DNA of 23,965 bases from a virus: the IMG/VR virus record IMGVR_UViG_3300034356_001443, positions 1-23,965 of that record; one strand, 5' to 3'. The position numbers were made by a program, and so were the translations under genes. The notes under the pieces are model-generated. The model was not told the origin of the DNA, did no database searches, and saw nothing but the letters and a program-made list of their open reading frames with translations. This document shows, piece after piece, positions 5,489 to 23,965 of the stretch. The first letter of the stretch is position 1. Each line of letters starts with the position of its first letter.

Positions 5489-5695
5489 ATGGAAAAAGAA
5501 ATTAAAAATGATGTAAGAGGTGCCATATTATTACATCTCGATGGAATTGAGCGCACTTTAGCTTGGCTTTCGGATAAGACTCAAATACCCTACCCAACAC
5601 TTTATTCTGTATTTAAGCAAAGGACATTTGTTCTATCTGATAGAAATTTAGCAAAAATAAATAGAGCATTAGACACTGATTTTATTAACGATTAA
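5489..5695 (+). CDS. Cro/CI-like helix-turn-helix regulator
   Basis: A 68-residue protein consisting almost only of an HTH domain: helix 1 (VRGAILLHLDGIE), helix 2 (TLAWLSDKTQ), recognition helix (PYPTLYSVFKQ), then helices RNLAKINRALDTD. This is the XRE/Cro layout. An in-frame ATG at 5450 would add 13 residues, but it lies upstream of the predicted promoter -7 element (5461-5468), so the start at 5489 is chosen; it also matches the short N-terminus usual in the family. It is the first gene of the replication operon and sits beside an inverted repeat, so it is likely an autoregulating early switch that may also affect the ninG promoter next door. Confidence 0.78.
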   Translation: MEKEIKNDVRGAILLHLDGIERTLAWLSDKTQIPYPTLYSVFKQRTFVLSDRNLAKINRALDTDFIND

Positions 5696-5705
5696 TTACA
5701 AAAAG

Positions 5706-6404
5706 ATGGCTAAAAGATTTACCGACACTGAAAAGTGGAAGAAGCCCTTTATAAGGGGCTTACAAGGTGCTTATAAGCTCCTTTGGTTATATATCTGCGA
5801 TGATTGCGACCACGCAGGTATTTGGCAGGTTGACATAGAGGTTGCAGCAATAAGAATTGGTGAAAAAATAGATTCAAAAGAAGCAATTAAAAGTTTTGAT
5901 GAGAAAATTATAATTTTTGATAAAGGTAATAAGTGGTTTATACCATCTTTTTTAGAATTTCAGTACCCATCTGGTTTAAATCCCGACAATAGAGCGCATA
6001 ATTCTGTAATCATATTGCTTGAAAAATATAATTTAAGAATTTCTAACAATAAGCCCCTTATAAGCCCCTCGGAAGGGTCTATGGATATGGATATGGTTAA
6101 GGATATGGATAAGGATATGGTAAAAGCAGAAAAAAAAATAAAATTTAAAGAAAATATTTTATTGACAAAAAAAGAACATTCACAGCTTGTTACAGAATTT
6201 GGTGAAAAGCATGTAACTGATTTTTATGAATACTTGGCAGCGTATAAAGTTGAAAAGTCATATAAAACAAAATCAGATTACCTAACTATCAAGCGATGGG
6301 TCGTAGATGCCATTTTAAAGCAAAATAAGACAGCTTCTCCCAAGATTGGTAATAAGTATCAGAACGAATTAGAAACCGCTAGAAACGCCTTTAAACCAAT
6401 ATAA
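5706..6404 (+). CDS. Phage replication initiator/replisome organizer-like protein
   Basis: A 232-residue protein with the layout of lambda O/DnaD-type initiators. The N-terminal part (about 1-110) is a winged-helix-like domain (FIRGLQGAYKLLWLYICDDCDHAGIW, then IEVAAIRIGEKI and IPSFLEFQYPSG). A low-complexity linker follows at 126-141 with the repeat pattern MDMDMVKDMDKDMVKA. The C-terminal part has a small helical domain (LTKKEHSQLVTEFGEKHVTDFYEYLAAYK ... YLTIKRWVVDAI), typical of loader-binding domains. It would bind the origin and recruit the helicase encoded next. As in lambda O, the linker DNA is a run of short repeats followed by A/T-rich sequence. It starts 10 bases after the HTH gene and ends 2 bases before the primase-helicase. 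The role is inferred from layout and context. Confidence 0.7.
   Translation: MAKRFTDTEKWKKPFIRGLQGAYKLLWLYICDDCDHAGIWQVDIEVAAIRIGEKIDSKEAIKSFDEKIIIFDKGNKWFIPSFLEFQYPSGLNPDNRAHNSVIILLEKYNLRISNNKPLISPSEGSMDMDMVKDMDKDMVKAEKKIKFKENILLTKKEHSQLVTEFGEKHVTDFYEYLAAYKVEKSYKTKSDYLTIKRWVVDAILKQNKTASPKIGNKYQNELETARNAFKPI
6083..6174 (+). other. Candidate replication origin: iteron-like repeats plus A/T-rich stretch
   Basis: Inside the initiator-like gene, GGATATGG occurs at 6083-6090, 6089-6096, 6101-6108 and 6113-6120, in a 6/12/12-base register, with a GGATAA variant between. It is followed directly by an almost G/C-free tract (about 6121-6174). Iterons plus an AT-rich unwinding region within the initiator gene is the lambda origin design. 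The repeats also simply encode the Asp-Met linker, so an origin role is unproven. Confidence 0.4.
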
Positions 6405-9134: not shown

Positions 9135-9398
9135 TTAAGCGTTTGCTGCTGCATTAATCTGTGCTACAGTAGAAGTCGTGTAAAACAATACGGCTACTTG
9201 GTTTAAGCCAGTAGGAGCTACTTCAACTATTGAGTTCATAGTTACTCCGTTTGCTACTGTATTTGCGGGAGCAGGGTAAGCTGCAATTGTGTTTACCGGG
9301 AATCCGTATGCAATACCAGAAGTTGCTGGAGTTCCGTTAGGGTTTAATAAAGCATATTGATTTCTTTGATATGCTGTAATTGATACTATATTTGCCAT
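9135..9398 (-). CDS. Paralogous small protein A (probable virion surface or decoration type)
   Basis: An 87-residue protein rich in Ala, Asn, Thr and Pro. It shares about half of its residues with the next leftward gene (9433-9810), including RNQY, NPNGTPATSG, VANGV-MNS, P-GLNQ and YT-TVA in the same order, so the two arose by duplication. This copy ends at residue 87 without the Thr-rich tail of its partner. The alternating hydrophobic pattern suggests a small beta-sandwich. No signal peptide or membrane span is seen. It lies 34 bases after its paralogue and before a strong terminator. A structural role is inferred from composition and location just before the packaging/virion genes. Confidence 0.65.
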   Translation of the reverse strand: MANIVSITAYQRNQYALLNPNGTPATSGIAYGFPVNTIAAYPAPANTVANGVTMNSIVEVAPTGLNQVAVLFYTTSTVAQINAAANA

Positions 9399-9432: not shown

Positions 9433-9810
9433 TTAAGGTGCTGCGGTTGTAGTAGTGGTAGTAGGTGCTGCGGTTGTAGTAGTAGTAGGTGCTGCGGTTG
9501 TAGTAGTGGTAGTAGGTGCTGCAGTTGTTGTAGTAGTGGTAGTAGCAATGCCACCGCCATTAATAGCTCCAATTAATCCAGCAACCGTTGCATTGGTGTA
9601 TAACTTTTCAGCTGGTTGATTTAAACCGCTTGGGTACATAAGAATCAATGAGTTCATTTGTACGCCATTTGCTACCACAGTTGTTGGTTGTACTTGTAAG
9701 GTAACAGTAGGTAATGAAAATAAGACACCGCTAGTTGCAGGGGTGCCGTTAGGGTTTGTTAAATCGTATTGGTTTCTACGATAAACATAAACAGATAAAT
9801 GATTTGCCAT
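9433..9810 (-). CDS. Paralogous small protein B with Thr/Ala/Pro repeat tail
   Basis: A 125-residue protein. Residues 1-88 are the same domain as in the gene at 9135-9398 (RNQY, NPNGTPATSG, VANGVQMNS, PSGLNQ). From residue 90 the chain becomes a tail of Thr runs broken by Ala-Ala-Pro, four repeats, ending ...TTTTTTAAP. Such tails are extended and rod-like, and look like stalks or mucin-like linkers. A similar Thr-run-Ala-Gly-Pro end is found in the small protein after the portal (15469-15855), and a related tract lies inside the connector-like protein at 19563. This argues that all are late virion proteins. A TATATTTG element is upstream (9854-9861). It is the first gene of a two-gene leftward unit that interrupts rightward genes. 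Confidence 0.65.
   Translation of the reverse strand: MANHLSVYVYRRNQYDLTNPNGTPATSGVLFSLPTVTLQVQPTTVVANGVQMNSLILMYPSGLNQPAEKLYTNATVAGLIGAINGGGIATTTTTTTAAPTTTTTTAAPTTTTTAAPTTTTTTAAP
9437..9544 (-). repeat. Coding minisatellite, four units of 24-30 bp
   Basis: Tandem units at 9437-9463 (27 bp), 9464-9487 (24), 9488-9514 (27) and 9515-9544 (30). Each encodes a Thr run plus Ala-Ala-Pro. All length differences are multiples of three, so slippage or unequal recombination changes tail length without breaking the frame. Confidence 0.9.
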
Positions 9811-9853
9811 TTTTTAATTGTTTTTTTTGTTATAAATTTTTTTTTGGGCAATA

Positions 9854-9861
9854 CAAATATA
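9854..9861 (-). promoter_or_regulatory. Bacteroidota-type -7 element for the paralogue pair
   Basis: On the minus strand this reads TATATTTG, a perfect TAnnTTTG match, 44 bases upstream of the leftward ATG at 9810. No TTTG at -33 was found. It indicates that the pair has its own transcript, independent of both flanking rightward operons. Confidence 0.55.
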
Positions 9862-9915
9862 ATAAATTTTGGTAGAAATAAAAAATCGTGTAATTTTAAT
9901 TAAATTAATTAAAAT

Positions 9916-10608
9916 ATGAAATTGATTGCGCCTAGTAATAAGGTTATTATAAAAGTGGATTTGGAAAGTAAGAATAGTCACACTTTTAAAGATGGAACAA
10001 AAATTAGACTAGAAAGGATATATGATAATTTTAACATGAGATATGTTAAGCCTGTTAATGGTATTGTGGTTAATGGAAAAGATATACCGGAAGGGGCTGA
10101 AATTCTTATCCATCACAATTCAACTCACGACACCTACAAGATATTTAATTATCAAAAGCCAACCACAGAGGCTTCATCGGATGTTCAATATTTTTCTATC
10201 CCAATAGAGGAATGTTTTTTATGGAGAGAAGGAAAAGGTTCTTCATGGAACGCTCTAAACGGATTTATTACAGCCTTGCGTATATTTAAGCCATATACGG
10301 GAATTATGGAAGGAGTAGAGCCTCAATTAATGAAAAATAAGCTGTATATAACAAGCGGCGAATTAACTGGTAATGTGGTAACAACCGTAATCTCAAGTGA
10401 TTATGAGATAATCTATCAAAATGATGACGGAACAGAAGGTAAGATTATTAGATTAAGATATTTTAACGATGGTAGCGATAGGAACGAAGTAATAGCCGTA
10501 GAGCATCATTTAACAGAAATGGTTATAAGCGGCGACTTGTTAGTAGGCTATAGTAAATCAGATGCTACCAAATTGGTAACAATTTCAACCCCAGAAATAT
10601 GTCAATAG
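9916..10608 (+). CDS. Hypothetical protein, possible double GroES-like fold
   Basis: A 230-residue, beta-rich protein without a firm family. The first half has the feel of a Cpn10/GroES chain: SNKVIIKVD near the start, then PVNGIVV, IPEGAEILIHHN (compare the 'VGDxVLxxxxxG' region of Cpn10) and FSIPIEECFLW (compare the final 'YxIxxxxDILA' strand). The second half (about 120-215) shows a similar order (KPYTGIM, LTGNVV, EVIAVEHHLTEMVISGDLLVGYS), suggesting two tandem copies. This is a weak, by-eye resemblance. It is the first gene of the late rightward block and overlaps the next gene by 10 bases. If correct it would be a second co-chaperonin-like protein besides that at 21031; otherwise it is an unknown late protein. 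Confidence 0.6.
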   Translation: MKLIAPSNKVIIKVDLESKNSHTFKDGTKIRLERIYDNFNMRYVKPVNGIVVNGKDIPEGAEILIHHNSTHDTYKIFNYQKPTTEASSDVQYFSIPIEECFLWREGKGSSWNALNGFITALRIFKPYTGIMEGVEPQLMKNKLYITSGELTGNVVTTVISSDYEIIYQNDDGTEGKIIRLRYFNDGSDRNEVIAVEHHLTEMVISGDLLVGYSKSDATKLVTISTPEICQ

Positions 10609-10967
10609 GATTAGAAAATATAATTAAAGATTTAGAAAAGCAAGTTGCTTATTACGAGCAAGATGGTATTGGGAAACTATATCATGCTTTAAATAGGAAA
10701 GCCAACGAAATGGCTGAATTGTTAAACAAGACTAGTCTTACAGCAATTGATATTGATGATCCAAAGATTAAGACATTTGAGAGGTTGCAAAAGATATGGG
10801 TAGATGCAGGTACTATTTCTGCTTCAATAAAAGCATTAGAAGTATTAGCTGGGATAAATCAAGAAGTAGCTGCTGATAAAAAAGAAATAGTTCAAGTTGT
10901 TAAAAAGCCGTTTTCTCCCGAAAACATGGCTGATGCGGTTGGCGAATTAGCTGGCAAAAAATTATAA
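10599..10967 (+). CDS. Hypothetical protein upstream of large terminase; possible small terminase subunit
   Basis: A 122-residue helical protein. Residues 1-50 form a charged helix (LENIIKDLEKQVAYYEQDGIGKLYHALNRKANEMAELLNK), followed by DDPKIKTFERLQKIWVDAGTISASIKALEVLAGI, a second helical region, and a basic C-terminal tail (KKPFSPENMADAVGELAGKKL). It lies directly in front of the large terminase gene with a 2-base gap and overlaps the gene before it by 10 bases, the usual place for the small terminase subunit that recognises the packaging site. I do not see a clear HTH, so the terminase role is a positional suggestion only. Confidence 0.65.
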   Translation: MSIGLENIIKDLEKQVAYYEQDGIGKLYHALNRKANEMAELLNKTSLTAIDIDDPKIKTFERLQKIWVDAGTISASIKALEVLAGINQEVAADKKEIVQVVKKPFSPENMADAVGELAGKKL

Positions 10968-10969
10968 TT

Positions 10970-13015
10970 ATGTACGAAAAAATTGAAGGGGGGACTATAA
11001 TTGATGTTCAAGGTTTAATGTGCAATTTGCCTCCGGAGGGTTATGTTTATAATATAATAACAAAGCAGTTAGAGCATAGAGGCGTGTACGAAAGGTCTAA
11101 AAATAAAGAGGAGCAATATTGGAAAAGAATCGCAATGCCTAGTTGGTATTCAGATACGATGAAGAAGTGGGATGAGTTTGACAAAAAGAAAAAGGACGAC
11201 GAGTCTGAATTTTATGACGAAAAGCTTGAAGAATTTAAAAGACAAGAGTGGGATAGAAGATTAAATGGGTTTTGGTATATGAATAATGGCGTTCCGTTAT
11301 ATTTAACGGGGATGCATTACTTATATTTACAATGGTGGTCAATAGATATTGGTTATCCTAAATTCAGGATGCCAGACTTGGAAAAGTTCTATTTTATGGA
11401 TTATTGTATTCAAGACCCATTGTGTATGGGGATGCTTGAAGTAACTAAAAGGCGTTTTGGTAAATCATTTGTGGCGGGGCTATTTGTTACCGAATATACA
11501 ACTAGGACTAAAATGACCAATGGAGGTATTCAGTCTAAAACGGGTTCTGATGCTAAAAAATTCTTTGCCAAAACAGTGGTAAATCCATTTAGAAGATTGC
11601 CTAAATTCTTTAGACCAGAATACGATATGTCTTTGGGGGTTAATCCAAAGTCAGAAATGAGATTTCAAAAAACAAACGTAAGAGGAAAGAAAGCAGAGGA
11701 AAATGTGGATAAAGATGAATTAGGTTCGGTTATTGACCATCAATCAGCTGATACAGTTGCCTATGATGGACAAAAGCTACATAGATATGTTGCGGATGAG
11801 TGTGGAAAAACTACCGAAGTGAATGTCTATGATAGACACGAGGTTGTGCGCTATTGCTTATTAGATGACGAAGGTCAAATCATTGGTAAGGCGCTTTATA
11901 CAACTACCGTAGAGAAGCTTACAACCGAAAAGGATGGAGTTCAAGCAGCTTTTAAGTTATTATGGGAAGAAAGTAATCAAGACAAAAGACAAGAAAATGG
12001 AACCACCTCTAGCGGTCTTTATAGATTTTTTATGTCCGCAAAGCGTACAAGAAACTTTGATGATTTTGGATTTCCTGACCAAGATAAAACATTGGACCAG
12101 ATTTTAGCAGACAGGGACACAGTAAAAAACAATCCAAGAGCATTATCTGCTCGTATTAGAAAAGAACCGCTAACTATTGACGAGGCTTTTAGTACAGATT
12201 CAGATAAGTGTATTTTTAATGTAATGAACATAGGCGCAAGGGAGGCTTCTTTAAAAGAAAACCCAGTATTAAAGCGTCATGTTTATTTCTATAGAGATAT
12301 AGACCAAGTAGTTAGGTGGAGAAGTATAACAGACAAAGAGCAAGATTTCCATTGGGTAATTACTCAATTCCCACCAAAGGGAGAAGAGAATAAACACAAA
12401 CACGATTTGTCATCTAGGAAACCAAGTAGAACAGATGATGGAGCAATAGCTATTGATGGTTATAGTAATAGTCAAGGTGGTAAATATGGTTCAAAGGCAT
12501 CTGCTTGGATTGGAAGAAGATATAATTTATTAGACCCGACAAGAACCGGAAAGGCAATTGGGCATTTGTATGGCAGACCGCAAATTAAAGAAACTTTACA
12601 TGAGCAGGTGATGTTAGCCGCTGAATTTTATGGGTATCAAGCTTGGTATGAGCATAATAGTGATGATTATCTATCTTATTTTAGAGATAGAGGAAGGGTT
12701 AATTATTTAGGTTCGTATCCCTTTGGAGCAATGGACCCGAATAAAAGAGATGCAGATAGGCATAAGGGATTCCCAACAACTCCGTTTAGTTTAACCAAAC
12801 AAACAGATGTTGGAATTATGTATTTTGAATATCACATAGATTCCATTGATTTTGAAAATTTACTAGAGGATGCAAAGCAATTTGACCCAAATAATAGAAC
12901 AGAATTTGACCAAACAGTATCATTTTTAATGTTATTAGTTTGCTTAATGGAGCCTGTTCAGAAACAACAAATGAAAGAACCTTTGGTAAAAAGTTACACT
13001 CCAAGTTTCAATTAA
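10970..13015 (+). CDS. terL: Terminase large subunit
   Basis: A 681-residue packaging motor. The ATPase part carries a Walker A-like TKRRFGKS at 159-166 (arginine-containing variant common in large terminases), and a Walker B ending in the acidic pair D276-E277 (LHRYVADEC). The nuclease part starts near 488 with AIAIDGYSN, where D496 is a probable metal ligand, and includes the late acidic residue D647 (EFDQTVSFLML). It pumps DNA into the prohead and cuts the concatemer. The N-terminal 150 residues are rich in Trp/Tyr (FWYMNNGVPLYLTGMHYLYLQWW), a pattern seen in large terminases of crAss-like and related Bacteroidota phages. Size agrees with those. It is followed by 60 bases holding a promoter element, then the portal gene. 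Confidence 0.9.
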   Translation: MYEKIEGGTIIDVQGLMCNLPPEGYVYNIITKQLEHRGVYERSKNKEEQYWKRIAMPSWYSDTMKKWDEFDKKKKDDESEFYDEKLEEFKRQEWDRRLNGFWYMNNGVPLYLTGMHYLYLQWWSIDIGYPKFRMPDLEKFYFMDYCIQDPLCMGMLEVTKRRFGKSFVAGLFVTEYTTRTKMTNGGIQSKTGSDAKKFFAKTVVNPFRRLPKFFRPEYDMSLGVNPKSEMRFQKTNVRGKKAEENVDKDELGSVIDHQSADTVAYDGQKLHRYVADECGKTTEVNVYDRHEVVRYCLLDDEGQIIGKALYTTTVEKLTTEKDGVQAAFKLLWEESNQDKRQENGTTSSGLYRFFMSAKRTRNFDDFGFPDQDKTLDQILADRDTVKNNPRALSARIRKEPLTIDEAFSTDSDKCIFNVMNIGAREASLKENPVLKRHVYFYRDIDQVVRWRSITDKEQDFHWVITQFPPKGEENKHKHDLSSRKPSRTDDGAIAIDGYSNSQGGKYGSKASAWIGRRYNLLDPTRTGKAIGHLYGRPQIKETLHEQVMLAAEFYGYQAWYEHNSDDYLSYFRDRGRVNYLGSYPFGAMDPNKRDADRHKGFPTTPFSLTKQTDVGIMYFEYHIDSIDFENLLEDAKQFDPNNRTEFDQTVSFLMLLVCLMEPVQKQQMKEPLVKSYTPSFN

Positions 13016-13047
13016 TTAAATTTTTTAATAAATTTCTTAATATTTAG

Positions 13048-13055
13048 TATATTTG
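13048..13055 (+). promoter_or_regulatory. Bacteroidota-type -7 element before the portal gene
   Basis: TATATTTG, a perfect TAnnTTTG match, ends 20 bases before the portal TTG start at 13076, implying a leader of only about 13-15 nt. No clear TTTG is seen at -33. It suggests that the portal-scaffold-capsid genes have their own late promoter in addition to read-through from terL. Confidence 0.5.
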
Positions 13056-13075
13056 ACACATAAAATTGATATAAA

Positions 13076-15457
13076 TTGTCAGATAGCCCATTATACATAA
13101 GCGCAGGAAATACTAGTGGTCAGTCGCTAAAGGACTTTCAGCTGACTACCGATCTTCCATCTAAATCAGATTTTGAATACGGAAAAAGAGTGGCGCAAAA
13201 TATTTATTCAACCATTTATGGCAATCAAACTTATTTTTGGCTTCGAAATAATCGTTTTAGAAAAAATAGACAAATTGCTAATGGAAAAATAGACATGAGT
13301 GTTTTTCTTGACAGATTAGAAATGAATAGCAAAGCCAATTTTGTAAATATAAATTGGAAGTCAATTATTATTGGTAATACAATTGTAGCTAGATTAGTTG
13401 GTTCATGGATGAGTAGAAAAGAAAAGATAACAGTTACTGCCGTTGATGAAACATCTGCAAAAAAGAAAAAAGAAATTGTAGATGAGGCTGAATTTATTTA
13501 TCAAAATAAAGAAGTCCTTGCGCAATTACAACAAGAATCAGGGATACCAATTATTCCCGAAGATCAATTTATAGCAGAAGATAAAGATGATTTAGATATT
13601 TGGACAACTGAATTTAATCACTTACCAGAAGAAATACTTTACAGCCTTGGTTGTAATAATGTTTTTGCTGCTAATGGATGGGATGATGTTTTAAAACAAA
13701 GGATATTACACGATTCAGCAGAAGTTGGGTTAGTGTGTACCTATACTTGGATGTGTGAATTAGGTGAAGTTCATGTTCAATGGATTAGACCTGAAAATGC
13801 AATTTATTCTTATTCTGATTTTCCTGATTTTAGAGATACTACTTATAGAGGTCATATTGTATCAATGAAGATTAGTGAATTGAGAGCAAGATATAGTAAA
13901 GATAATGGCGGAACTTTAACAGAAGAACAAATATTTAGAATAGCTCAATCTTCAAAAGAATATCAATTAACAGATAAGTTAAAATGGATGCAAGATTGGA
14001 ATGTTGCTTGGTTAAGACCTTATGATGAATGGAATATTGACTTAATGAACTTTGAAATTAGAACTTTAGATTCTGATGGATATACTGTTACCAAAACTAA
14101 AAAAAATGGCAGTACTATTATTAGAAAAGGAAAAACAGAAAAGTTAGATGATAATCAAGAATATATAGAAGAAAAGAAGTGGAATATATACAAAGGCGTT
14201 TATTGCCCTGTATTACAAATGATGATAGAGTGGGGTATTAAGAAAAATATGATTCGCCCACAAGACCCTAAAGAATTAGGAAATGCAGAATTTTCTTATA
14301 GCTTTTATATGTACGACCCATACGATATGCGTAATGTGGCTGTGCCTGAAAAAATAGAAGAGCCTATTGAACAGATGATTTTGGCTAGATTAAAGATACA
14401 ACAAATGGTTGCCAAGATGGTGCCAGCAGGTGCTTCAATTGATGTAGATGCATTGCAAGAATTAGATTTAGGATTAGGCGACTCCGTAAAACCACTAGAA
14501 GTACAAAAAATTTGGGAACAAACTGGTAAACTTTATTATCGTGGTAGAGATGCTGAAGGTAATAGAATACCTGTTCCAATTACAGAATTAGCTAACACAG
14601 GATTTGCTCCTCAATTACAAGCTTTAATTCAATTATACCAATTCCATTATCAAGTATTAAAAGATGAATTAGGGGAGGACCCGAACTTAATGAATCAAGC
14701 TGCTCAACCAAGAGTTGCTGCATCTAATATTGAAGCTTCAAGACAATTAGCAAATAACGCAACAGAATATATGTACGATGCATATATCTATGTAATGGAA
14801 GAAACAGCTAAAAAAGTAGCTTGTTTATTGAATAAGAGCGTAACACATGGCGCTAAAAAATATAGAGATATTTTAAAAGAAGAAGATGTTAAGGATAGAA
14901 ACTTTGTAGCAAAAGTTAAAATGTTGCCTACCGATATGGAAATTGCCAAATTGGAAGCAATGATGAATAATGCTATAGCGACTAATCCTCAATTTGTAAT
15001 GTATATTGATCCATTTAAGGTTATGAGAATTGCAAAAGAAAATACATCATTAGCTGAACTTTATTTTAGACAAGCGCAAAAGAAATTTATAAAAACAGAA
15101 CAGCAAAAAGCTCAAACAAATAGTGAGCAAAATGCTCAATCACAACAAGCTAGTATTCAGGCAAAGATGCAAGCTGATACGGTTTTGGAAGAAAAGAGAA
15201 ATTTAGCAAAAGAAAAACAAATTGTTTTACAGGGAGTTTTTGATTTGGCTAAAGCTAACATTTCAGTTCCAGCAGAATTACAACAAGTTGTAAGTGATAT
15301 ACTACAAAATTTAGAAGTTCCTGTAGCAGTACAAAATCAACAACAACAACAGGCTCTTGAGCAACAAGCGCAACAACAACAGCAAATGGAACAGCAACAA
15401 ATGGAACAAGGACAGCCACAAAATCAACAACCACAAGAACAATTACAAACAGCTTAA
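13076..15457 (+). CDS. Portal protein
   Basis: A 793-residue protein directly after terL, with the character of the large portals of podovirus-like Bacteroidota phages. The N-terminal half contains SDFEYGKRVAQNIYSTIYGN and RFRKNRQIANGKIDMSVFLDR, followed by a beta-rich central region (WMCELGEVHVQWIRPENAIYSYSDFPDF). Residues about 500-620 should hold the helical stem and crown (QALIQLYQFHYQVLKDELGEDPN, ASRQLANNATEYMYDAYIYVMEE). The last 100 residues are a coiled, Gln-rich tail (QNQQQQQALEQQAQQQQQ). Portals form the 12-fold DNA gate at one capsid vertex. The start must be TTG at 13076: an in-frame TGA lies just upstream (13067-13069) and the first in-frame Met is near residue 74. Identity rests mainly on position, size and composition. 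Confidence 0.82.
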   Translation: MSDSPLYISAGNTSGQSLKDFQLTTDLPSKSDFEYGKRVAQNIYSTIYGNQTYFWLRNNRFRKNRQIANGKIDMSVFLDRLEMNSKANFVNINWKSIIIGNTIVARLVGSWMSRKEKITVTAVDETSAKKKKEIVDEAEFIYQNKEVLAQLQQESGIPIIPEDQFIAEDKDDLDIWTTEFNHLPEEILYSLGCNNVFAANGWDDVLKQRILHDSAEVGLVCTYTWMCELGEVHVQWIRPENAIYSYSDFPDFRDTTYRGHIVSMKISELRARYSKDNGGTLTEEQIFRIAQSSKEYQLTDKLKWMQDWNVAWLRPYDEWNIDLMNFEIRTLDSDGYTVTKTKKNGSTIIRKGKTEKLDDNQEYIEEKKWNIYKGVYCPVLQMMIEWGIKKNMIRPQDPKELGNAEFSYSFYMYDPYDMRNVAVPEKIEEPIEQMILARLKIQQMVAKMVPAGASIDVDALQELDLGLGDSVKPLEVQKIWEQTGKLYYRGRDAEGNRIPVPITELANTGFAPQLQALIQLYQFHYQVLKDELGEDPNLMNQAAQPRVAASNIEASRQLANNATEYMYDAYIYVMEETAKKVACLLNKSVTHGAKKYRDILKEEDVKDRNFVAKVKMLPTDMEIAKLEAMMNNAIATNPQFVMYIDPFKVMRIAKENTSLAELYFRQAQKKFIKTEQQKAQTNSEQNAQSQQASIQAKMQADTVLEEKRNLAKEKQIVLQGVFDLAKANISVPAELQQVVSDILQNLEVPVAVQNQQQQQALEQQAQQQQQMEQQQMEQGQPQNQQPQEQLQTA

Positions 15458-15468
15458 AATAAAATAAA

Positions 15469-15855
15469 ATGGCAAATGCAACTAAAATATTAATCAGACT
15501 GACTAAATTTAGTTCAAAAATTAGTAATGTTATTGATTGCACAGCGCAATTCAATGCAGCAGACAGTTTTTTTCAAGATTTATCAGGATGGGATGTAGCC
15601 GTAGTTCAATTAGTAAACCCCGGAACTACTATACTTTTTAAAACAACCAATGATGATGGTTCTGTAACAGGTCAAGTAATGCCTGCACCAGAAGTGCCTG
15701 AATATTGGACTACAGTTTTAGGAATTAATTTAACTACAAAAACCGATGTATCTTCGTTAGCAACTACGGGTATTGTTAGTTTTGGTATTATAGGAAAGTA
15801 CTTGCAATTAATTGCTGCCGGTGCAACCACTACTACTACCACTGCAGGACCTTAA
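15469..15855 (+). CDS. Small virion-type protein with Thr-run C-terminus
   Basis: A 128-residue protein between portal and scaffold-like genes. It reads as a small beta domain (MANATKILIRLTKFSSKISNVI, WDVAVVQLVNPGTTILFKT, IVSFGIIGKYLQLIAAG), and ends in a run of six Thr followed by Ala-Gly-Pro (residues 120-128). The same kind of ending is seen in the gene at 9433-9810 and in the tract inside the protein at 19563. The location, 11 bases after the portal stop and 23 before the scaffold-like gene, fits a head decoration, head fibre or portal-associated protein. The N-terminal 'MAN' and overall size recall the paralogue pair at 9135-9810, but I cannot align the domains convincingly. Role inferred. 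Confidence 0.65.
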   Translation: MANATKILIRLTKFSSKISNVIDCTAQFNAADSFFQDLSGWDVAVVQLVNPGTTILFKTTNDDGSVTGQVMPAPEVPEYWTTVLGINLTTKTDVSSLATTGIVSFGIIGKYLQLIAAGATTTTTTAGP

Positions 15856-15878
15856 AATAGAAACCAAATAAGCATTTT

Positions 15879-17027
15879 ATGCCAGAAAATAACCCAGCAG
15901 CTCCTATTGAGCTAGCAGTCGGCTTCAATCCCTTTGGGGATGATAATGCACCACAAGTGCAAAATAAGGTAGAAGAAGCCCCTATCTTAAATGAGCAACA
16001 AGCTCCTCCTCAACAAGAGGGAACAAAAGTAGAGGAACCATCTTCAGCTCCTCAAACTTCTTTTGATCCAAATCAATTTGTAAAAGAAAGATTTGGATTT
16101 GAAAGTGTAGAGCAAGCTGAAGAAGAATTTAAGAGATTTAAAGAACCTAAAGAGGAATTTAAATTTCAAGATGACATGAGTAAAACATTGTTTGATGCTA
16201 TTAAAGAAGGCAAAACAGATGATGTTTATCAAATCCTGAATCAACAAAAAAGATTGGACAAGTTAATTTCAAATGAATTAACTCCTGATTTAGCTGTTGA
16301 TATTATAAAGACGAATATTCAGAATAAATACAAAGATTTAACTTCAGATGAGGTTGACCTCTTGTTTTATGACCAATATTTCGTACCTTCAAAGCCTGAA
16401 CAAGGTTACGATGAATCCGATGAGGATTATGCTACCAAGGTTAAAACATGGCAATCACAAGTAGATTATCTAGACAAGAAAATGATGATTGAGGCGAAAG
16501 TGATTAGACCTGAATTAACTAAATTAAAAAGTGAATTAAAGCTACCTGATATTTATGGAGAGGCAGAGCAAGAGGCTAATTCAAGAGAAGAACTTGAGAA
16601 TATGCAACAAGCTAGGTCAGTCTATGAAAAAACACTTGATTCTGATTTCCAATCCTTCAGCGGATTCACAGTATCGGTAAAAGACGAGGATGTCGAAATA
16701 CCGATTTCTTTCAATGTAGCTGAAGATGAAAGGTTGGCAATGAAGAACAGTTTGGCAGATTTTGATAGTGATTCTTATTTTGGAGAAAGATGGTTCGCCG
16801 AGGATGGTAAGCCAAAAGTTCAACAAATGATGGCAGATAAATATTTGCTTGAGAATTACAACAAAATACTACAAAAAGTGGCAAATGAAGCAGCTTCCCA
16901 AAGGATGCTTGCTCATCTTAAAAAAACAGGTAATATTAATATCAACCAACCCACCCCACAAGGTACGCCAACACCAAGCGCTAATGCCGAAAGGGATAGA
17001 TTAGCAGCTTGGGCGTTTAGTTCGTAA
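15879..17027 (+). CDS. Scaffolding-like protein
   Basis: A 382-residue, strongly acidic protein just upstream of the capsid gene. Residues 1-65 are Pro/Gln/Glu-rich and disordered (NNPAAPIELAVGFNPFGDD, QQAPPQQEGTKVEEPSSAPQ). The middle is charged and helical (EQAEEEFKRFKEPKEEFKFQ, then a long stretch of Asp/Glu/Lys helices to about 250). Residues 255-330 may form a small globular part (FQSFSGFTVSVKDEDVEIPISF), and the C-terminus ends with a polar linker and a short helix (AERDRLAAWAFSS). Acidic helical proteins in this slot normally scaffold capsid assembly and leave before DNA entry. No protease motif is seen. The call rests on position and composition. Confidence 0.7.
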   Translation: MPENNPAAPIELAVGFNPFGDDNAPQVQNKVEEAPILNEQQAPPQQEGTKVEEPSSAPQTSFDPNQFVKERFGFESVEQAEEEFKRFKEPKEEFKFQDDMSKTLFDAIKEGKTDDVYQILNQQKRLDKLISNELTPDLAVDIIKTNIQNKYKDLTSDEVDLLFYDQYFVPSKPEQGYDESDEDYATKVKTWQSQVDYLDKKMMIEAKVIRPELTKLKSELKLPDIYGEAEQEANSREELENMQQARSVYEKTLDSDFQSFSGFTVSVKDEDVEIPISFNVAEDERLAMKNSLADFDSDSYFGERWFAEDGKPKVQQMMADKYLLENYNKILQKVANEAASQRMLAHLKKTGNININQPTPQGTPTPSANAERDRLAAWAFSS

Positions 17028-17073
17028 CTTAATATTGCCCTTGGGGAAGGTATAAAAATAAAAATCAAATATC

Positions 17074-18483
17074 ATGGCAGGAATACCTACCTCGAATATT
17101 TTGCAGCCGGGTTCAATCTCGTTGCAAACACAGAATAGGCAACTTATGGTTGACCTACAATTATTAACTCCTCAATATTACAAACAATATACTGAAAAGT
17201 ATGGTAATGAGGATTTTACATGGTGGTTAGCCGCTCATAGCGGTATGGAAGAAGTTAAAAACCAAAACTTTTTCTGGTTTGAAAACAGAGGTAAATTAAT
17301 GCCTGCTGTTACAAATGACTCAACAGTAGCTGCTGGCGTTGGTTCAACTGTTACTTTAACTTTAGGAGCAGAGGCTTACTACAACAGTGGTACTCAAACT
17401 CCTTTAAGAGTTAATGAAACTTTGCGTGTTGCATCTTCAAATATTGAAGGTGTTATTTTAAGTATTGACGATTCTGTTCCAAATGCATTTACTTTTGATG
17501 TTGCTCCAAAGCAAACATCTCAAAGATTTGCTTCTGCTGGTTCAACTGACTTGTTAGCAGGTGAGGTTTTATTGTTTGGTGGTGATGCAGATGCTGGTGA
17601 AGCTTCTGGTCAAATCGATCCTTTAATCCCATTGGATGAAAGATATGATAACAACATTACGCAAATTCGTGATGGTTGGAGTAATACCGATTTAGCTCAA
17701 ATGGCTGATACTTTTTATGAGTATCCTGTTTCTGCTGATATGGCTGCTAATGGCGTTAGTGCTTTTACTTACAAAGGAATGTACAAGACTCTTGTTCGTT
17801 TCAAGAATAATGTTGAAGCAAAATTAATGCGTGGTAGTACTCAAAACAATACTGCAATTAATAATTCTCTAGGTACACAAGGTATTATCCCTAAAGTAGT
17901 AGCTGATGGCGAAACTGTAGGATACACTCCGGGTACTTTAGATATCGCTAAATTGCATGAAATCACTCGTATTATGGATGTTAACGGTTGTGCAAAGCAA
18001 TCTGCTTGGTTAACTGATATCTACCAAAGACAAGACTTTAGTGATGGTATCTTCGCTGCTTACCCAGCAGGTGCTTTCGTTTATGGTCAAGGTGAAAAAT
18101 CAAAAGAGGCTTCTGTTGCTTACGGATTTCAAGAAATCTTCATTGATGGATATTTATTATCTGTTAAGAAGTATTCTCAATTTAACACAGAGGTTACAAC
18201 TGGTTTAACTCCAAATGTAGATTACTTCCGTAATTTCGGTTTAATCTATCCAATGGGCGAAACAAAGGATAGCAGAACTGCTCAAGCATACAAGAACATC
18301 ACAGTTATGTACCAAGAACCACCTAAAGGCGGAACTGTTGGTAACGGTATTCGTGTATGGCAGTTTGGTGGTGGTTCTCCTAATCCAACTGATGGTACAA
18401 TGACAAACCAAATCGCAATGATTACATATCGTGCGACTCGTGTTTGTGCTGCGAACCAATTCATTATCGTTCAAGGTAGTTAA
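17074..18483 (+). CDS. Major capsid protein
   Basis: A 469-residue protein in the canonical place after the scaffold-like gene. It begins MAGIPTSNILQPGSISLQTQ, then a Trp/Phe-rich region (EDFTWWLAAHSGMEEVKNQNFFWFENRGKLMP), a beta-rich insertion (about 80-175), a helical spine region (LAQMADTFYEYPVSADMAANGV...YKTLVRFKNNVEAKLMRGS), and the P/A domain (KLHEITRIMDVNGCAKQSAWLTDIYQRQDF ... FRNFGLIYPMGETKDSRTAQAYKN). This fits an HK97-fold capsid of the size found in crAss-like and related phages. The codon use is richer in GCT/GGT-type codons than its neighbours, as expected for a very highly expressed gene. A strong hairpin follows the stop (18516-18546), separating it from downstream genes. Confidence 0.85.
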   Translation: MAGIPTSNILQPGSISLQTQNRQLMVDLQLLTPQYYKQYTEKYGNEDFTWWLAAHSGMEEVKNQNFFWFENRGKLMPAVTNDSTVAAGVGSTVTLTLGAEAYYNSGTQTPLRVNETLRVASSNIEGVILSIDDSVPNAFTFDVAPKQTSQRFASAGSTDLLAGEVLLFGGDADAGEASGQIDPLIPLDERYDNNITQIRDGWSNTDLAQMADTFYEYPVSADMAANGVSAFTYKGMYKTLVRFKNNVEAKLMRGSTQNNTAINNSLGTQGIIPKVVADGETVGYTPGTLDIAKLHEITRIMDVNGCAKQSAWLTDIYQRQDFSDGIFAAYPAGAFVYGQGEKSKEASVAYGFQEIFIDGYLLSVKKYSQFNTEVTTGLTPNVDYFRNFGLIYPMGETKDSRTAQAYKNITVMYQEPPKGGTVGNGIRVWQFGGGSPNPTDGTMTNQIAMITYRATRVCAANQFIIVQGS

Positions 18484-18515
18484 TTAACGCGCATTTGCGC
18501 TGTTGATATTAATCG

Positions 18516-18546
18516 GGTAGGGGCAACTTTATTGATTGTCCCTACC
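18516..18546 (+). terminator. Hairpin after the capsid gene
   Basis: GGTAGGGGCAA (18516-18526) pairs with TTGTCCCTACC (18536-18546): an 11-bp stem with one G-U pair and a nine-base loop, followed by TATTTT. It lies 33 bases after the capsid stop. A smaller GCGCA/TGCGC hairpin lies at 18489-18500. The T run is short, so it could act as a partial terminator or as an mRNA-stabilising structure. Confidence 0.65.
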
Positions 18547-18573
18547 TATTTTAAACATTAAAAATAACCATTT

Positions 18574-19467
18574 ATGGCTCGTTTAAAGGCAGTAGGAACC
18601 TCCGATGCGAATTACGCAAACCAAGGAGAAGTAATAAGAAAGATAAGACAAGAAGAGGAGTCTATGACAGCAATGTCAGAAGCGCCATCAACTAGTACTA
18701 CATTTAAGATTTACAAGTTAACAGATACCAAAAAGAACGGTAAATACCACATGGAAGGTATTGACGATGTCTTGCATCCTGAAAGAAAAAGGATTGAGCG
18801 CGTTAGGCTTTTGACAGGTTATCCTAGTATTTGGGTAGAAGATCAAAAAAGTCTAGAAAAGACTTTTGTTGAAAGAAACAGAAGGAGTTTAATATTTGAC
18901 AGAAGGGTTTTAAGAATACCCGATTACGATAGTACAGCTCTTGAGTTTTTATCAGTATGCAATGCTAATGTGGATAATCCAAACAAAAAAGGTACAAGAA
19001 AAATAACCTTTTTCCAATGGAACCCAGAAAGACAAGCAGAAGTGGAACGCGCTAAAAGAGTTGCTAAAATTGAAGCTATTAAATTTGCTTCAATGGCTAG
19101 TGATGAAGATATGCGTAAGCACTGCAACTACTTGGGAGTTTTATTTAACGATGAATTAGGTATGCCTAAATCAATGCATGCCTTGAGAAATGACTATGAG
19201 CTTTATGCTGAAGCGCAACCCAATAAGTTTATGTTAAGTGCGGGCAGTAAAGAAGTGGAAATAGCGTTCACCGTTAAAAAGGCTCTTTTAGACAATAAGA
19301 TTGATGTTTCTATAAGGAAAGGTTCTGCTTATTGGGCTAATGATGGAGGTTTCATTTGTAAAATACCTTCAGGAGCAAAACCACAAACATATTTAGTAGA
19401 ATATGCAATGTTGCCACAAGATGAAAGTAAAGCTTTCCTAGAGCAGTTAAAGAAGTTTAATTACTAA
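18574..19467 (+). CDS. Hypothetical protein after the capsid gene
   Basis: A 297-residue protein of unknown family. The first 40 residues are flexible (GTSDANYANQGEVIRKIRQEEESMTAMSEAPSTST). Residues 44-130 read as a mixed beta region (FKIYKLTDTKKNGKYHMEGIDDV, RVRLLTGYPSIWVED). The middle, 150-200, is a charged helix (ERQAEVERAKRVAKIEAIKFASMASDEDMRKHCNYLG). The last third (KEVEIAFTVKKALLDNKIDVSIRKGSAYWANDGG) may form a DNA-binding or small regulatory domain. It ends 23 bases before an intrinsic terminator. In related phages this slot between capsid and connector genes often holds head-internal or head-completion proteins; that is the best guess here. Confidence 0.7.
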   Translation: MARLKAVGTSDANYANQGEVIRKIRQEEESMTAMSEAPSTSTTFKIYKLTDTKKNGKYHMEGIDDVLHPERKRIERVRLLTGYPSIWVEDQKSLEKTFVERNRRSLIFDRRVLRIPDYDSTALEFLSVCNANVDNPNKKGTRKITFFQWNPERQAEVERAKRVAKIEAIKFASMASDEDMRKHCNYLGVLFNDELGMPKSMHALRNDYELYAEAQPNKFMLSAGSKEVEIAFTVKKALLDNKIDVSIRKGSAYWANDGGFICKIPSGAKPQTYLVEYAMLPQDESKAFLEQLKKFNY

Positions 19468-19490
19468 TCTTTCCCCTCTAAAATAAAAGA

Positions 19491-19523
19491 AGTCCCGTAG
19501 CCTAAAAATTACGGGGCTTTTTT
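19491..19523 (+). terminator. Intrinsic terminator
   Basis: AGTCCCGTA (19491-19499) pairs with TACGGGGCT (19510-19518), nine pairs with one G-U, ten-base loop, followed by a run of six T residues (19518-19523). This is a textbook rho-independent terminator ending the capsid-downstream transcript. Confidence 0.88.
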
Positions 19524-19536
19524 GTTTGTTTTTTTG

Positions 19537-19544
19537 TATATTTG
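19537..19544 (+). promoter_or_regulatory. Bacteroidota-type -7 element for the connector genes
   Basis: TATATTTG, a perfect TAnnTTTG match, 13 bases after the terminator's T run. It decides the start of the next gene: a TTG at 19542 lies inside this element and cannot be on the transcript, whereas the ATG at 19563 is about 12 bases past the predicted start point. Confidence 0.65.
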
Positions 19545-19562
19545 GGATATAAAAAAAGCATC

Positions 19563-20393
19563 ATGAACATAGATGATATGTACAAAATTTGTCAGTATGC
19601 TATAAACAAGAGCCAGAACGGGTATCTTACTAGTTCTGAATTTAATTTATTAGTAAATCAAGCACAAACATCGTATTTAGATTATTTGTTAGGCGAATTT
19701 CAGCAATATCAATATGGCAGAGCGCAAGCTAGAGTTTCATACAGCCAAAATGAAGATATAAGACAAAGATTATCTCCATTAATTACAGAAACAACACTTT
19801 CAATAAACGGAACAGGAATTGCATCATATCCATCTGATTATGTTCAAGCAGATGCAATGAGAACATCAGCATTTGCAAGAGTTAGATTTGTTCAACAAGA
19901 TAGCTTATATTCTTATTACAATAGTACTATAGACCCTATTGCTACAAATCCTATTTATCTTATAGAGCCAGATGGTTTTAAGTTTTACCCAATAACATTA
20001 GGTTCGGCAGTTTTAACATACGTAAAAAATGCACCAGAAATGATTTGGGGATATTGTTTAGATGCTAATGGAAGGCAAGTGTATAACCCAACAGCTCCAC
20101 CAACAACAACGACTACTACAACCGCTTCGCCAACAACAACGACTACATCAACTACATCTACTACATCAACAACAACGACTACTACTACATCAACAACATC
20201 AACAACTACAGCGGGACCAACAACTACAACAACTACATCTAGTTTAAATTGTATTACTTACAGTATTCAGCCAATATGGTATGATGTGGATTTATTAGAG
20301 ATAATAGCTCGTACTTTAAAGTTGGTAGGCGTAAGTTTACAAATAGGACAAGTAGAACAATATGCTAATCAAATTACCCAACAAGGACAATAA
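19563..20393 (+). CDS. Connector/ring-like protein with internal Thr-rich tract
   Basis: A 276-residue protein. The first 45 residues are helical (MNIDDMYKICQYAINKSQNG, then FNLLVNQAQTSYLDYLLGEF). Residues about 60-165 are beta-rich (TTLSINGTGIASYPSDYVQADAM, NPIYLIEPDGFKFYPITLGSAVLTYVK), the typical layout of head-tail connector/ring proteins in podovirus-like Bacteroidota phages. Residues 177-227 are an inserted Thr/Ser/Ala/Pro tract. After it comes IQPIWYDVDLLEIIARTLKLVGVSLQIGQVEQYANQ, which resumes the fold as a C-terminal helix. ATG 19563 is chosen over TTG 19542 because the latter overlaps the promoter element. Its stop shares one base with the next ATG. The role comes from gene order and general resemblance. 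Confidence 0.65.
   Translation: MNIDDMYKICQYAINKSQNGYLTSSEFNLLVNQAQTSYLDYLLGEFQQYQYGRAQARVSYSQNEDIRQRLSPLITETTLSINGTGIASYPSDYVQADAMRTSAFARVRFVQQDSLYSYYNSTIDPIATNPIYLIEPDGFKFYPITLGSAVLTYVKNAPEMIWGYCLDANGRQVYNPTAPPTTTTTTTASPTTTTTSTTSTTSTTTTTTTSTTSTTTAGPTTTTTTSSLNCITYSIQPIWYDVDLLEIIARTLKLVGVSLQIGQVEQYANQITQQGQ
20091..20243 (+). repeat. Thr/Ser-coding simple repeat within the ring-like gene
   Basis: About 150 bases dominated by ACA/ACT/ACG codons in short recurring groups (ACAACAACGACTACT and ACATCAACA types), coding for Thr and Ser with two Ala-Ser/Gly-Pro breaks. Unlike the tail at 9437-9544 it lies inside the gene and keeps the reading frame. Confidence 0.85.
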
Positions 20394-21025
20394 TGACTAG
20401 AAATATATTTATAGAAAGAATATTAAGACAGATTTACAATGGTCAGCCATCTGACGATAGTAGCATTACTTATAGTTTAGTTAATCAATGGCTTAACGAT
20501 GCTATTGGATTAGCTGCTAAAAAGAATTATACTGATGGTATTCAAATGGATGGTATCGCTTATGTAAACAATTCTTTTTATACAACATTTACAAATTTAG
20601 ATATCGCAGCAGAGCCGGTTGATACTGTAACATATAGCGTAGATTTGCCTCAAATACCAGTAGCGTTAGGTAAGAATGAAGGTATTGCTACTTTGCAGTT
20701 TGTTGGTGACAAGAGAACATCTCAAACAGCTATACCATTAAGCATGAATCAAGTTGCATATATTGAGCAATTAAGACCAATACAGAATAAAATACTTTAT
20801 TGGATTGAAGGTAAAAATATATACATTAAAAGTGCAATACAATTAACCTCATATAAAGCTACGATAAGAATGGTTAGTGGCGGTGATTCAACAGATTTGG
20901 GATCAACATTAATAGTTCCTGATGATTATGTTCCTATGATAGTAGAATATATCAAAGGTCAATTAGCTTTTGAAAGGTCAAGACCAATAGATACAAGTAA
21001 CGATGGCGTAGATAATAATAATTAA
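20393..21025 (+). CDS. Head-tail connector/ring or tail-tube-like protein
   Basis: A 210-residue protein coupled by one base to the preceding gene. It begins MTRNIFIERILRQIYNGQPS, with helix SLVNQWLNDAIGLAAKKNY, then a beta-rich centre (YVNNSFYTTFTNLDI, VTYSVDLPQIPVALGKNEGIATLQFVGD, SYKATIRMVSGGDSTDLGS) and a final helix (DDYVPMIVEYIKGQLAFERSRPID). A helix-beta-helix layout with 'VPDDYVPMIVEYIKGQLAFERSRP' at the end is typical of the small connector/ring proteins in crAss-like and related phages. It would build part of the neck between portal and tail. Assigned by pattern and neighbours. Confidence 0.65.
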   Translation: MTRNIFIERILRQIYNGQPSDDSSITYSLVNQWLNDAIGLAAKKNYTDGIQMDGIAYVNNSFYTTFTNLDIAAEPVDTVTYSVDLPQIPVALGKNEGIATLQFVGDKRTSQTAIPLSMNQVAYIEQLRPIQNKILYWIEGKNIYIKSAIQLTSYKATIRMVSGGDSTDLGSTLIVPDDYVPMIVEYIKGQLAFERSRPIDTSNDGVDNNN

Positions 21026-21030
21026 ACTAT

Positions 21031-21303
21031 ATGACACCAATTAGAGATTTAGTATTAGTAAAGCCATTTATGGCGGATGAAATTACCGAAGGCGGACTTT
21101 ATATCCCTGAAAATTATAGGGAAAGAAGCAGCAAGGCACAAGTTGTAAAAGTAGGGAATGGGACAGCTAAAGTGAAAATGGAAGCCAAAGTGGGAGATGT
21201 TGTTTTCCATATTAAAGGCGCAGGAGAACCATTTGTAATTGATGGGGAATATTATTATTTAATTCGTCAAAACGATATATTATCTTACGTTTCAAATAAT
21301 TAA
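21031..21303 (+). CDS. GroES-like co-chaperonin
   Basis: A 90-residue Cpn10 homologue close to host GroES length (about 95). It starts TPIRDLVLVKPF (canonical 'I+PLxDRVLVK'), followed by the mobile-loop region (about 15-33) EITEGGLYIPENYRE, where the IVL tripeptide of GroES is replaced by LYI (23-25), then QVVKVGNGTAKVKME, KVGDVVFH, and GEYYYLIRQNDILSYV, the conserved final strand. It should cap the host GroEL and help fold a phage protein, as T4 gp31 does for its capsid protein. It lies in the virion block, 5 bases after a ring-like gene and 2 before the next, so it is made together with them. Family assignment is strong; the client is unknown. Confidence 0.9.
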   Translation: MTPIRDLVLVKPFMADEITEGGLYIPENYRERSSKAQVVKVGNGTAKVKMEAKVGDVVFHIKGAGEPFVIDGEYYYLIRQNDILSYVSNN

Positions 21304-22085: not shown

Positions 22086-23965
22086 ATGCCAATAATAAAT
22101 AACCCATTTAACGGTAAACTAAATTTAGATGTTGCTGAATACAGAATTAGCAATGGTGACTATTTAGATGCCTTAAATATAACGAAAGACGCAGAAGGCA
22201 AAGGTCAAGATAGAGTTATTTCTAATATTTTAGGTAACTCTCAAATAAATTATACTTTACCAGCAGGTACTAATAAAGTTATTGGTTTTTATGCCGACAA
22301 GGTAAGGAATAGAGCCTATTATTTCGTTTGGAATAGTGGTGGTTACAATAGCATTTTATATTATGATCTAAATACAGAAATAGTATTTAAGGTTTTAGAA
22401 AGTAAAACAGATAGCGATGGTGTTGATATTTTAAGTTTTAACCCGTCTTACAAGGTTTTGTCAGTTAATCTATATTATAGAGATGACGAAGGTGATATTT
22501 TATTTTTTAATGATGGATTAAATCCACCTAGAAATATAAATGTATTAGCTAATTATGGAACATCTTGGAAAGCTGAATATTTAACTGTTATCAAAGCGCC
22601 TCCTGTAATGCCACCAAAAGTGGTCTACGAAAGTGAGGATAACTCAAACTTTACAATTAATAATTTAAGAAATAAGTTATTTCAATTTTCATATAGGTAT
22701 GTTTATGATAACAATGAAAAATCGGTATGGAGTTCAAAAAGCATAGTCCCATTGCCGCAACAGCCAACAATAGAACTTACAGATGTAAATTTTAGAGATA
22801 ATGCAAGAATATCAATATCCGTATCAACCGGTGGCGTAAATGTAAAAAAGATAGAATTTTGTTTTAGAGAAACATATACTTTAGGAACTAGTGATTGGTA
22901 TCTATTAGCTCAAATAGACAAGGCTGTTGACGGATTACCATACCCTTCTGCTGTTGCAGATAATGACATTTACACATACAAGTTTTTAAACGATCAGATT
23001 TATTCCGTATTAGATGTAATTGATACAGCGCAGTTGCAAGATTGGGTTCCTCAAAAAGCAAATGCAGCTGAATTAGCTAATGGTAATGTTTTATTATACT
23101 CTGGAATTACAGAGGGTTTTAATAAAATTCAAATGGATTTAGAGCCAGCAAGCACTCAATATATTGTTGACGGATATTTCATTGACATCTGCGGTATTTT
23201 GTTTTTTGCTACTTGTAATGGATTAGATAGCGGTAGCAACAGTACGATTATGAAGGTTTTTGTATATGGCACAGGTACTAATACAAGTGGTATTGTTACT
23301 ACTTTAAATAACCCATCAGGTATATATAAAATAAATGCAATTAATGCTAATGGTAGCGATATTAGCGCTTCATTTCAATATAATTCCGTAACGCCATTGC
23401 TAGTGTCTAGTTTGCTAAATGGCATATCAACGGCACTTCAAGCGGCTGGATGGAATCAGGTTAGCATAGTAAATAATGTTTTAACTGTTTCATATACAGC
23501 AGTTGCGGGTGGCGCTACCTTGCTATCTAGTGGCGTGGCTTATATATATGTAGCGGGTCAGCCAGATAATACAACCCTTGCAAATGCATGGAGTTCAGGT
23601 TATCAATATGGACTACAATATTTTGATGCCGAAGGTAGAACAATAGGTGCGCAAGTTGATTTGAATGGGGATATAACAAATGGTTCTAGTTTTACTACAG
23701 TGCAAGAACCATATAGTATATTCCCCGGTTTTGAAGCTAGATTTCCTAAAGTTTATTTATTTATTAATAATATACCGCCTTTAGATGCTATTTATTATCA
23801 AGTTTTAAGGTCTAATAATACCACTTATAACAAAAGATTATATTGGATAAGCGATTCGGCTTATTCTAGTATTGTTTCAGTAGGAAGTACCGAGCCAAGA
23901 TATATTTTTGTTAATGTAAAAAATATAGAAACATATAATAAACAAATAAGCTCTACTTCTAGTGT
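22086..23965 (+). CDS. Tail stabilization/muzzle-type protein (partial, runs off window)
   Basis: An open frame of at least 626 codons from ATG 22086 with no stop before the window ends. The N-terminus INNPFNGKLNLDVAEYRISNG, followed by DYLDALNITKD and ISNILGN, has the 'N-G-K-x-N-x-D ... Y-x-D-A-x-N-I ... NIxGN' look of the phage stabilization proteins found after ring proteins in crAss-like phages. The centre contains LNDQIYSVLDVIDTAQLQDW followed by VPQKANAAELANGNVLLYSGITEGF, the most recognisable stretch of that group (compare 'DNVPxxAxxQExxGNRxxYGNYxEGY'). The beta-rich remainder fits a large tail-hub or muzzle protein. A Gly/Thr/Ser-rich insert lies around residues 390-495. Its true length is unknown. 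Confidence 0.75.
   Translation, partial: MPIINNPFNGKLNLDVAEYRISNGDYLDALNITKDAEGKGQDRVISNILGNSQINYTLPAGTNKVIGFYADKVRNRAYYFVWNSGGYNSILYYDLNTEIVFKVLESKTDSDGVDILSFNPSYKVLSVNLYYRDDEGDILFFNDGLNPPRNINVLANYGTSWKAEYLTVIKAPPVMPPKVVYESEDNSNFTINNLRNKLFQFSYRYVYDNNEKSVWSSKSIVPLPQQPTIELTDVNFRDNARISISVSTGGVNVKKIEFCFRETYTLGTSDWYLLAQIDKAVDGLPYPSAVADNDIYTYKFLNDQIYSVLDVIDTAQLQDWVPQKANAAELANGNVLLYSGITEGFNKIQMDLEPASTQYIVDGYFIDICGILFFATCNGLDSGSNSTIMKVFVYGTGTNTSGIVTTLNNPSGIYKINAINANGSDISASFQYNSVTPLLVSSLLNGISTALQAAGWNQVSIVNNVLTVSYTAVAGGATLLSSGVAYIYVAGQPDNTTLANAWSSGYQYGLQYFDAEGRTIGAQVDLNGDITNGSSFTTVQEPYSIFPGFEARFPKVYLFINNIPPLDAIYYQVLRSNNTTYNKRLYWISDSAYSSIVSVGSTEPRYIFVNVKNIETYNKQISSTSS

Follow-up and report, generated by a model that had tools for sequence, protein, structure and literature searches.

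In the window, by which we mean the whole analysed stretch of 23,965 nt (an IMG/VR virus record and a fragment of a crAss-like podovirus), three proteins carry runs of threonine closed by Ala/Gly-Pro, and comparison with related contigs gives good support to these tracts acting as flexible linkers and as seams of module exchange. That the tracts are also O-glycosylated is plausible from gene linkage and from the family of an enzyme that the relatives encode. Combining hydroxyl-saturated linkers or tails on virion proteins, a module seam, and O-glycosylation by the phage's own enzyme, the joint reading seems to us evenly poised between holding and failing. According to it, the tract would be a flexible, hydroxyl-saturated linker or tail on virion proteins, used by one family of crAss-like podoviruses from aquatic habitats and by other phages around it, and as any Thr-rich sequence would be tolerated there, it is here that modules would come and go and be traded across unrelated anchors and phage types. 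O-glycosylation would probably take place in the host cytoplasm, through a phage-encoded fusion of a GT4 domain with a TibC/Aah-type O-heptosyltransferase, and a mucin-like coat would hold the linkers in an extended form, protect them from proteases, and let them mask or display modules. Here, sequence comparison demonstrates the linker and seam steps, and display on the virion surface is suggested by homology.

The late region of the window encodes a terminase, a portal, and head proteins of PHROG families, along with crAss ring protein 2. Membership of a Crassvirales-like group is indicated by the last of these (20393-21025, + strand, tract-free), which scores over the Pfam cut-off for PF25702 and fixes the phage identity, and by the crAss-like gene order. 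By terminase, the closest cultured relatives are Flavobacterium Elemovirus and Cellulophaga phages, with 22-28% identity. In phiCrAss001, whose structure has been solved, the order runs portal, head-fibre gene, capsid, rings, and muzzle (PMC10172136). The window shares this portal-to-muzzle order, the ring-2 family, and a small gene after the portal, though no Thr tracts or strings of modules were found in the consulted passages of that description (PMC10172136). Also tract-free in the window are the portal protein (PHROG 6547; 13076-15457, + strand), which we took as a reference gene, and a virion structural protein (PHROG 13704; 17074-18483, + strand) at the major-capsid position. Inside the same late gene cluster, the ORF at 21031-21303 reads like a candidate GroES-type co-chaperonin.

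The gene at 9433-9810 is read from the minus strand, whereas the head and tail genes run the other way, and encodes a small protein of 125 aa, in which an 87-residue N-terminal domain is followed by a C-terminal tail of four Thr-run/AAP units, with the C-terminal end reading ATTTTTTTAAPTTTTTTAAPTTTTTAAPTTTTTTAAP. While the preliminary description was right to place a tail in this late-region gene, the coordinates it gave are those of the whole gene, the tract proper being at 9436-9546. Among the orthologues, the 87-residue domain is kept and the tail varies between 27 and 43 residues, even where the orthologues are near-identical, which suggests that larger units have been duplicated and lost. 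Moreover, a tail-less paralogue of 51% identity (9135-9398, minus strand), omitted from that description, shows that the domain can occur without the tail.

Just after the portal, the gene at 15469-15855 (+ strand) encodes a small protein ending in TTTTTTAGP (15826-15852), and this C-terminal tail is kept in 18 aligned members, including the one in the window, and absent in tract-free relatives. Its position is the same as that of the head-fibre gene gp21 of phiCrAss001, the likeness being one of position only (PMC10172136). Searching the PDB by sequence gave no convincing match for this protein, and its AlphaFold model and that of a 73-aa module, both weak (pLDDT 63 and 68), gave no significant structural match. 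Both the 9433 and the 15469 proteins are putative virion components. Further downstream, a tail-ring-type protein (PHROG 14543, virion structural protein; 19542-20393, + strand) has an internal 52-residue Thr/Ser tract at 20088-20243, this being an insertion in a loop of family-variable length. As only the window and a 98%-identical contig (L005) have this tract, it was rejected as a conserved feature of the ring protein, and the ring profile had no match in the PDB. There is also a fourth carrier, the homologue of the muzzle (tail-tip) protein (22086-23963, + strand), of which the window end leaves only the N-terminal part, and whose tract, past that end, is seen in the near-identical L005.

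In fact, the pattern T5+[AGS][AG]P occurs five times in the window ORFs against a mean of 0.001 in residue-shuffled ORFs, with none of 2000 shuffles reaching five, and so the three tracts originally described are present far beyond chance. The accompanying view that their host proteins are otherwise not clearly related agrees with our BLASTP comparison. Common ancestry of the three carriers was rejected, as no similarity was found outside the tracts.

Relatives were gathered via the ring protein, and most of the resulting 51 loci have Thr tracts in the same few genes, these being the post-portal small proteins (as C-terminal tails), the muzzle (in the C-terminal part), and the small genes that come directly behind it. 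With about 50 related contigs carrying them at fixed gene positions, the tracts are common to relatives rather than random and unshared, the exception being the ring-protein tract, which belongs to the window's species only. In the muzzle C-terminus of L005 and relatives, Thr tracts alternate with small modules of 65-106 aa, up to about eight per protein, and the muzzle of L027 has a tract-flanked module inserted inside the protein, near residue 391. Some relatives (e.g., L019, L025, and L037) lack late-region tracts altogether. In five tract-free contigs (L016, L025, L026, L037, and L053, at about 5640-6290), a single ORF of about 212 aa seems to unite the two post-portal proteins; in tract-bearing relatives these come from separate genes, each with a Thr tail. 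Beyond the family, a pattern scan of IMG/VR returned at least 120 tract stretches, on proteins of many unrelated kinds. The cultured relatives of the clade (elemo, phi38:1, and part of phi19:3) have no poly-Thr and no Gly-Thr-Ser repeats; elemo has a single collagen-like stretch, Pro-rich and of an ordinary kind.

The segments between tracts, excised from 245 distinct tract-bearing proteins, were clustered, which revealed several module families sitting on anchors that have no detected similarity to one another. The tracts thus separate discrete modules that recur on other proteins, as inter-domain linkers do. Among 111 cross-anchor module pairs with at least 40% identity, there are 72 in which the alignment comes to within five residues of the tract on either side, and the DNA identity of six inspected pairs is 72-88% (82-88% in five of them), so that the seam proposed in the preliminary description is supported by near-alike modules on non-homologous anchors and by the fall of DNA identity at the tract. 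Third-base agreement at identical residues is 0.73 in modules and 0.41 in the flanking tract, the latter figure coming from 64 tract residues of four pairs and being indicative. Because every segment ends at a tract by the way it was excised, the weight rests with the alignment from end to end and with the drop in third-base agreement. Shared modules are carried by the muzzle protein of crAss-like phages and also by proteins of L115, a phage whose Phage_portal-type portal is unlike the crAss-like portal of the window phage. Modules have thus moved between phage types, with homology ending at the tract. As for the tract being an attachment handle, this holds in the sense of a linker and in no other. 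Within a single genome, the muzzle of L033 (12363-16214) and the next gene (16248-17108) share a C-terminal module with 82% DNA identity, which suggests duplication or gene conversion between neighbours.

The window has no TibC gene, the 24-kb fragment stopping short of the region that encodes the enzyme in relatives. Among the relatives, 12 of 15 family contigs have a gene with a GT4 domain, and it was GT4 that led to TibC; GT2, found in only two of the 15, was rejected as the common enzyme. The protein is a fusion of an N-terminal GT4 and a C-terminal TibC-type protein O-heptosyltransferase domain, mostly of about 680 aa; three contigs have longer open frames, of 1,150-1,160 aa. It scores 212.9 and 245.2 bits against TIGR04414 (autotransporter O-heptosyltransferase; cut-off 200), and the C-terminal domain matches TibC (4RAP) with an E-value of 2e-42. 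For TibC itself, the catalytic and sugar-site residues and the iron-finger cysteines are defined (PMC4358343). In our alignment of the phage enzymes, the equivalents of the catalytic Asp110, the sugar-site Thr226 and Lys230, and the four iron-finger cysteines are invariant, and that of Trp305 is kept at 90% or more. The sugar-binding Arg286 of TibC is not conserved in the alignments, with Thr and other residues found at its position in the phage enzymes. By score and by these residues other than Arg286, the relatives' enzyme belongs to the BAHT/TibC family, and it is predicted to transfer heptose to a protein hydroxyl. While this likeness to the TibC/Aah heptosyltransferases (BAHT, TIGR04414, PDB ID: 4RAP) extends to the score over the cut-off, the catalytic Asp, the Thr/Lys/Trp set, and the four cysteines, the known enzymes are bacterial and encoded beside autotransporters, and the phage version is GT4-fused, lacks Arg286, and lies beside fibre and Thr-tail genes.

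The fusion is present in 21 of 23 near-complete family contigs of 46 kb or more (18/20 and 3/3), and TibC was found in none of 33 random contigs and in six of 40 other tract-bearing contigs, many of the remaining 34 being fragments. Of the long family contigs, two have no TibC gene that scores over the cut-off. One is IMGVR_UViG_3300032323_002596 (L013/L014), which carries the same late region at both ends in inverted orientation, probably as an assembly artefact. A glycosyltransferase-like protein of 480-490 aa with weak similarity to TIGR04414 is encoded by L207 (G013), L206, and L209, and in G013 it replaces the full fusion. Overall, the enzyme occurs in hundreds of IMG/VR contigs and in almost no cultured phages, only four records of the cultured/GenBank phage collection matching TibC and none of these belonging to the clade. 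Its relatives in bacterial genomes are at most 39% identical.

We inspected 80 TibC-centred loci within 10 kb, 73 of them outside the ring family and seven inside. Outside the family, a poly-Thr gene is found in 30 of 73 loci, a collagen-like Gly-Thr-Ser gene in 37, and either in 51, and when the TibC proteins are clustered at 80% identity, 27 of the 33 groups have one or the other neighbour. Such genes are absent from all 120 random loci, which were not matched for host or habitat (a looser ORF filter gives one T6 run), and from all 88 controls with a GC content of 40% or less. Part of the association could stem from host and habitat. These counts are ORF-based; an S/T-run pattern scan was set aside, as in the controls it matched apparently acidic genes in antisense. 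In about a dozen loci, a Thr-tailed small gene lies 300-470 bp from TibC on the other strand, and in one tract-free relative the TibC-adjacent MKTI protein has Gly-Thr-Ser repeats in place of poly-Thr at its end, as though what is preserved were the density of hydroxyls and not the sequence. The idea of a glycosylation handle is thus backed by the relatives' TibC-type enzyme and by its place beside poly-Thr and Gly-Thr-Ser genes, which is guilt by association.

Were the tract only a recombination seam, easing module exchange with no role of its own, the coincidence of module boundaries and DNA-identity loss with tracts would be accounted for. We consider this improbable, though, as 18 members of the 15469 family and nine of the 9433 family retain C-terminal tails that bear no module and so have nothing to exchange. 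Neutral expansion at the DNA level, with ACN triplets spread by slippage as baggage, would fit the 27/51-bp unit tandemly repeated in the 9433 tail and the differing tail lengths of orthologues. However, the usage of ACA, ACT, ACC, and ACG inside T-runs is close to Thr codon usage elsewhere in these genes, and identical adjacent Thr codons make up 0.349 of 2083 pairs against 0.365 expected, so that codon mix and adjacency look like random draws from the genes' own usage. Triplet slippage (a microsatellite) predicts an excess of identical neighbours and was rejected. With tracts recurring at the same gene positions across diverged relatives as well, we find expansion scarcely credible; unit duplication may alter tract length, and Thr content looks to be under selection.

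A weightier contender, which we nevertheless think rather doubtful, is that the tracts are unmodified disordered spacers or tails, comparable to the PT-linkers of bacterial cellulases, with TibC acting on the Gly-Thr-Ser fibre or another target. Inside the family, tract and TibC do not strictly go together, since G014, G117, and G156 are tract-free and yet keep TibC, with Gly-Thr-Ser repeats carried instead, so that collagen-like fibres may be the sole substrate. Likewise, the seven ring-family TibC loci all have a Gly-Thr-Ser gene and only three have a poly-Thr gene, and the tails of MKTI orthologues are acidic or Pro-rich, not Ser/Thr, in three or four cases. The known TibC modified Ser, not Thr (PMC4358343), and this, along with the persistence of the enzyme in tract-free relatives, indicates that TibC may act chiefly, or even solely, on the collagen-like fibre. 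On the other hand, an unmodified linker would not need near-pure Thr, as Gly/Ser or Pro-rich sequence would do, and Thr is kept with fully mixed codons; moreover, poly-Thr genes are near TibC in 14-16 of the 33 TibC clusters against 0/120 random loci. That many aquatic phages have a TibC-type enzyme of their own reserved for poly-Thr/(Gly-Thr-Ser)n tracts of the virion, giving a mucin-like coat whose recognition modules are displayed and traded between unrelated phages, is a reading that we hold tentatively, at a little under even confidence.

Ser/Thr/Pro linkers of modular extracellular enzymes are likewise low-complexity hydroxylated strings between exchangeable domains, though these are secreted enzymes and the Thr tracts here are on virion proteins. 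For the capsids of mycobacteriophages Che8 and Rita, phage-encoded glycosyltransferases and glycans on virion proteins are reported (PMC11256854); these are other phages, and the acceptors proposed here are low-complexity Thr or Gly-Thr-Ser tracts. In Clostridioides difficile, the SgtA gene adjoins that of its Thr-rich collagen-like substrate BclA3, in which the sugar is O-linked to Thr (PMC7157674). This resembles the glycosyltransferase gene beside a Thr-rich collagen-like gene seen here, although SgtA is of the GT-A type, with its target on the spore surface, and the phage candidate is TibC-type. In the open-licence literature, we found no paper on crAss-like phages and threonine-rich sequence, on TTTTTTAAP as a phage tract, or on phage collagen-like proteins and O-glycosylation. 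What is new is the connection of the relatives' GT4-TibC fusion to poly-Thr and Gly-Thr-Ser genes, which suggests, without proving, that the tracts are sugar-coated. A low-complexity tract that had no explanation thereby becomes a system of two parts, acceptor tracts and a named enzyme, that can be tested. If true, virion glycosylation would be common in environmental phages, and Thr linkers would mark the swap points of surface domains, which matters for how host range evolves and for annotating virion proteins now called 'hypothetical'. A further candidate part of the modification pathway is a protein of unknown function (phrog_4417 in L115:122-1084, with look-alikes at L076:11127-12089 and L178:560-1489), which directly follows Thr-tract genes in the other phage type and, in a crAss-like contig, has a similar protein located between the TibC fusion and another glycosyltransferase gene.
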